Assembly: GCA_021810455.1 (NCBI GenBank)
Contig: JAJZIU010000005.1
Coordinates: forward strand, 1-41,285
Length of the DNA: 41,285 nt
Direction: 5' to 3'
DNA from: Microcaldota archaeon
Lineage (GTDB): Archaea; Micrarchaeota; Micrarchaeia; Micrarchaeales; CABMGC01
Positions 9,801 to 18,097 of the stretch are shown here, one piece after another; the first letter of the stretch is position 1; the number at the start of each line of letters is the position of its first letter. A program made the position numbers and the translations under genes. The notes below the pieces were generated by a model that saw nothing but the letters and a program-made list of their open reading frames with translations, was not told the origin of the DNA and ran no database searches.

Positions 9801-9930
9801 GCCGGGATGGCAGAACCAGGCATCGCGCCAGAATTTATTGGCGAAACTCGAGATCTGGTGGCCTTTTGGCCATCTGGGTTCAAAATGAAATCATGATGCG
9901 TGTTTCATGAAATTCCCAGTCCCGGCGCCA
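9801..9930 (+). tRNA. tRNA-Ser(CGA), interrupted by two putative introns (about 9833-9846 and a 29-nt T-loop intron about 9885-9913); CCA encoded
   Basis: Acceptor GCCGGGA/TCCCGGC, discriminator G73 then CCA. Anticodon stem CCAGA/TCTGG with loop CTCGAGA. Long variable arm TGGCC-TTTT-GGCCA. T-stem CTGGG/CCCAG separated by a 36-nt loop starting TTCAAA. Confidence 0.88.
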
Positions 9931-17967: not shown

Positions 17968-18097
17968 GCCAGGGTGGCAGAGTCCGGCTAATGCGTACGC
18001 CTGGAAATAAAACCTGCAAGCGTATGGTCCTCACGGGCCGTCTGGGTTCAAAATAAGCTTCGGGCAACCGATGATTATGCAAATCCCAGCCCTGGCG
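17968..18097 (+). tRNA. tRNA-Ser(GGA), interrupted by a 12-nt anticodon-loop intron (about 18007-18018) and a 31-nt T-loop intron (about 18053-18083)
   Basis: Acceptor GCCAGGG/CCCTGGC, G73. D-stem GCA/TGC, anticodon stem TACGC/GCGTA with 19-nt loop beginning CTGGAA. Variable arm GGTCC-TCAC-GGGCC. T-stem CTGGG/CCCAG with 38-nt loop beginning TTCAAA. CCA not encoded (TCA). Confidence 0.88.

Follow-up and report, generated by a model that had tools for sequence, protein, structure and literature searches.

The question raised by positions 9801 to 9930 of the window, the whole stretch of 41,285 nucleotides analysed here, is whether a tRNA-Ser(CGA) sequence carrying two inserts is a working gene from which both are spliced or the relic of a decayed one. 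The host is a tiny uncultured archaeon of the Micrarchaeota, the nearest relatives of its TyrRS being found in Micrarchaeota MAGs, and its genome (G000), which is 84.6% complete, comprises 52 contigs with a total of 788 kb. The gene, which decodes UCG, occupies positions 9801-9927 of the plus strand, is followed by an encoded CCA (9928..9930) after the discriminator, where most relatives have no conserved CCA, and has two minus-strand neighbours, a glycosyltransferase-like ORF on one side and TyrRS on the other. The initial annotation expected standard tools to miss this gene, and this held for the two that were applied, as ARAGORN and Rfam RF00005 (at its gathering threshold) both reported only a tRNA-Lys in the window.

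All parts of the gene lie on the plus strand. Exon 1 (9801..9831) provides nucleotides 1-30 with the acceptor 5' strand, the D arm and the start of the anticodon stem, as delimited by the sequence, the excision model and the relatives. It is separated by intron 1, AATTTATTGGCGAA (9832..9845), at position 30/31 from exon 2 (9846..9884), which provides nucleotides 31-59 with the remaining anticodon arm including the anticodon CGA (9849-9851), the variable arm, the T-stem 5' strand and the T-loop sequence TTCAAA. Intron 2 (9885..9913), with a length of 29 nt, is located at position 59/60, and exon 3 (9914..9927) contributes nucleotides 60-73, comprising the end of the T-loop, the 3' strands of T-stem and acceptor, and the discriminator G. 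The features described initially, i.e. the acceptor (GCCGGGA/TCCCGGC), anticodon (CCAGA/TCTGG), variable (GGCC/GGCC) and T (CTGGG/CCCAG) stems, the single A-C mismatch of the D-stem and the T-loop of 36 nt, were all found, and so was BHB-like pairing at both junctions, the lack of which would by the initial annotation have spoken against its reading. Excision of both introns yields a standard tRNA cloverleaf in which the A12-C23 mismatch stays, and the identity as Ser(CGA) with two introns was upheld by sequence, relatives and excision.

Of 60 related genomes searched at the DNA level, many have the tRNA-Ser(CGA) gene, and 39 full-length genes with 24 distinct sequences, the window's own gene among them, form the comparison set. 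After splicing 98.8% of the stem cells in these sequences are paired, ten pairs are altered on both sides, and none of 500 shuffles reaches the observed covariation score; covariation is seen in the acceptor, variable and T stems. Judged by this retention of the same body in 39 relatives and the covarying stems, the gene body is not a product of chance. At D-stem pair 12-23 an A12-C23 or A12-A23 mismatch is fixed in many species of the window's family and other species have G-C or A-U; the pair is open in 7 of the 24 distinct sequences.

Intron 2 shows a full hBHBh' layout, with an outer helix CTGGG/CCCAG (9874-9878/9915-9919), a central helix TTCA/TGAA (9879-9882/9908-9911), bulges AA|A and AT|T, and an inner hairpin. 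The initial annotation had described the insert as an ATGAAA/TTTCAT fold; this hairpin exists, but the key pairing is that of exon TTCA with intron TGAA together with the two 3-nt bulges. The carriers of the intron share this layout: TTCA next to the T-stem pairs with the four bases that precede the 3' bulge, the bulges are AA|N and NN|T, and an inner hairpin is frequent. Of 23 carriers, 20 have the complete central helix and three a partial one (with base composition assumed, binomial p is about 6e-34), and in every carrier the spliced T-loop reads TTCAAAT, matching intronless relatives. Inspection and conservation support this structure, although it is not the predicted minimum-energy fold: for the isolated T-arm at 37 C the BHB form was calculated at -12.5 versus -14.3 kcal/mol for the minimum-energy structure and makes up about 3% of the modelled ensemble, and folding by itself fails to single out the BHB for this fragment. 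Carriers of intron 2 were seen in the window's own family only. A search of G000 with a 59/60 pattern gave ten matches as compared to seven in the reversed control and thus mostly chance hits, the only real ones being tRNA-Ser(CGA) itself and tRNA-Arg(CCT). The latter (L165, G000:C39:20086-20133) has a 59/60 T-loop intron with an identical TTCA/TGAA helix.

In intron 1 the helix is formed by CGCC (9826-9829) with GGCG (9840-9843), and the bulges are AG|A and AA|A, i.e. the four-base-pair helix and both 3-nt bulges of a BHB motif are present in a relaxed form, with an outer helix that is nearly absent and not conserved. All 39 genes share GCGCCAG...GGCGARACTCGAGATCTGG, and since GGCG never varies the helix is supported by invariance and not by covariation. 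The length of the intron is 11-15 nt in 37 of the 39 genes and 44-45 nt in the other two. Among 295 genomes drawn from across the phylum, 76 contain the pattern GCGCCAGN{4,34}GGCGARACTCGAGATCTGG; they belong without exception to the two families of the window's order, and the reversed control gave 0 matches. With a covariance model of the spliced tRNA, intronless orthologues (L171-L173) were found in three genomes (G053, G031, G048), and their junction, CCAG^ACTCGAG, is exactly the predicted one. The intronless gene of G031 is identical in 84/84 nt to the spliced gene of G007, which has an intron 1 of 13 nt; both genomes belong to one genus, and the gene flanks differ. Both splice sites are fixed by the comparison. 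An intron of 11-45 nt is kept across the order, yet it is cleanly missing in a species of the same genus with an identical mature tRNA. A tree of the endonuclease described below would require at least four changes for the pattern of intron 2 and eleven for that of intron 1, as read from a weak single-gene tree which resolves the order poorly and has 16 of 55 branches starred. In two further genomes of one genus (G003, G029) the tRNA-Ser(CGA) genes L203 and L204 are intronless with the loop CCCGAAA, C33 replacing the near-universal U33.

The register of intron 1 has to be weighed against a cut at 31/32 or 32/33. The initial annotation had the length of 14 nt right and favoured 31/32, thus reading the insert as ATTTATTGGCGAAA; the cut is placed here one base upstream and the intron read as AATTTATTGGCGAA. 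Taking the window's own genome alone, 30/31 and 31/32 lead to an identical product, and excision at 31/32 or 32/33 restores the stem in 28 of the 39 relatives. Only excision at 30/31, however, leaves all 39 genes with a perfect anticodon stem and U33, the remaining registers doing so in six at most; cutting at 31/32 leaves the base at position 31 mispaired in eleven relatives (T-T, or C in L062). The bulge geometry AG|N, AA|A and the junction of the intronless relatives agree with 30/31 as well, which makes a downstream cut very improbable.

Even less probable, in our view, is that the locus represents a pseudogene decayed by random insertions, with its function taken over by another gene or by wobble decoding of tRNA-Ser(UGA). 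The two inserts plus a D-stem mismatch could be taken as signs of decay, tRNA-Ser(UGA) does exist in the genome (at G000:C42), and a completeness of 84.6% leaves room for an unseen copy. Against this stand the inserts, which dozens of species have at the same positions, and the nearly invariant exons with their covarying stems; in addition an intact tRNA-Ser(CGA) elsewhere, which the initial annotation had named as a finding that would speak against two introns in a working gene, was looked for in G000 and not found within its 84.6% completeness.

The reading we prefer, with a probability of roughly 95%, is that the locus is the only functional tRNA-Ser(CGA) gene of the cell and that its two introns are of the BHB type and are cut out by an epsilon-type endonuclease. 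The predicted epsilon2-type enzyme has its counterpart in the same genome, where one splicing endonuclease of 384 amino acids is encoded (G000:C49). It is closely similar to that of ARMAN-2 (PDB 4fz2), to which it matches over the whole length (522 bits, E 6.6e-156; residues 8-384 aligned to 11-387), and forms a three-unit chain with two PF01974 (endonuclease-domain) stretches. In the ARMAN-2 enzyme Y236, H251 and K282 are the catalytic residues and K161 is located in the ARMAN-specific loop (PMC6379350); the equivalents Y232, H248, K279 and K157 are invariant in 58/58 genomes. The ARMAN-2 enzyme is reported to cut BHB and BHL precursors alike (PMC12397907). An RtcB ligase is also encoded in the genome. 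Both inserts are almost certainly removed by the cell's own splicing enzyme. We infer transcription of the gene, followed by cleavage and ligation in this order: the ARMAN-2-like endonuclease would cut the transcript at both ends of each intron, at 30/31 via the relaxed motif with its four base pairs CGCC/GGCG, 3-nt bulges and a virtually absent outer helix, and at 59/60 via the canonical hBHBh' motif, and the three exons would be joined, probably by RtcB, to an 84-nt tRNA plus CCA decoding UCG. One precursor with a canonical and a relaxed motif would thereby offer natural substrates for an enzyme family of solved structure.

Further tRNA genes in the genome have introns as well. An unannotated tRNA-Ser(GGA) on the plus strand of the window (17968-18097), likewise missed by ARAGORN and Rfam, contains two introns, one of 12 nt near 37/38 (18007-18018) and one of 31 nt at 59/60 (18053-18083). 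The tRNA-Leu(TAA) genes L201 (G000:C1:2626-2733), L209 and L219 carry a D-loop intron near position 20, which is common to G000 and distant members of the order. ARAGORN also misnames several intron-bearing tRNAs in G000, for instance calling Ser(tga) what reads as Thr(TGT) (L015), Leu what reads as Phe(GAA) (L016), and Phe what reads as Gly(CCC) (L030). Its second 'tRNA-Ser(cga)' (L025) was rejected as a spare Ser(CGA), as by inspection it is an intron-bearing tRNA with a CAT anticodon and without a long variable arm. Since essential tRNAs of these genomes escape both ARAGORN and Rfam, claims of missing tRNAs in Micrarchaeota need care.

Positions 30/31 and 59/60 are both listed as archaeal non-canonical intron sites (PMC4090602) and ARMAN-1 and 2 have been named among organisms with multi-intron tRNAs (PMC4033280), so the gene is a well-supported addition to a known kind. 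No description of the 30/31 plus 59/60 pair in tRNA-Ser(CGA) was found in the literature examined, the scope of which stopped short of the 2011 primary ARMAN papers. One of the closest parallels is provided by the epsilon2-cut multi-intron tRNAs of ARMAN-1 and ARMAN-2 with their non-canonical introns (PMC4033280, PMC6379350, PMC12397907), which share the phylum, a close endonuclease whose catalytic and loop residues are the same, the occurrence of several short introns in one tRNA, and relaxed BHB motifs, but belong to a lineage other than that of the window. Multi-intron tRNAs of Thermoproteales such as Pyrobaculum (PMC4033280, PMC3218864) share the two published sites and differ in being crenarchaeal and in having an (alpha-beta)2 enzyme.

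Within the order tRNA-Ser(CGA) occurs with the 30/31 intron, with or without the 59/60 intron, precisely intronless, or with a Ser(UGA)-like body and a 37/38 intron. In 19 Ser(UGA) and 11 Ser(CGA) genes (L191/L202 at G000:C42:6863-6981; L174-L200, L206, L210, L213, L282-L287) the 37/38 intron contains GAGCTGA N(n) TGATG, a motif with two occurrences in the 41-kb window, both strands included. CTGA...TGATG is invariant in these introns and comes after a guide with complementarity to the anticodon loop. Five bases upstream of CTGA, all 19 UGA genes have A; among the 11 CGA genes, eight have G there and three A. This fifth guide base tracks nucleotide 34 (Fisher p 3e-5, a value which overstates independence due to the kinship of the genes). 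In Ser(UGA) and part of the Ser(CGA) genes the 37/38 intron looks to contain a D'/C' methylation guide with nucleotide 34 as its target; the guide in the tRNA-Trp intron of Haloferax is a known parallel (PMC11408192). Fibrillarin was found in G000; Nop was looked for there and not found. That tRNA-Ser(CGA) of this order switches between architectures and that the 37/38 D'/C' guide would direct 2'-O-methylation of nucleotide 34 is a combined proposal to which we give even odds. If true, the principle of the euryarchaeotal tRNA-Trp intron guide would extend to the serine tRNAs of Micrarchaeota.
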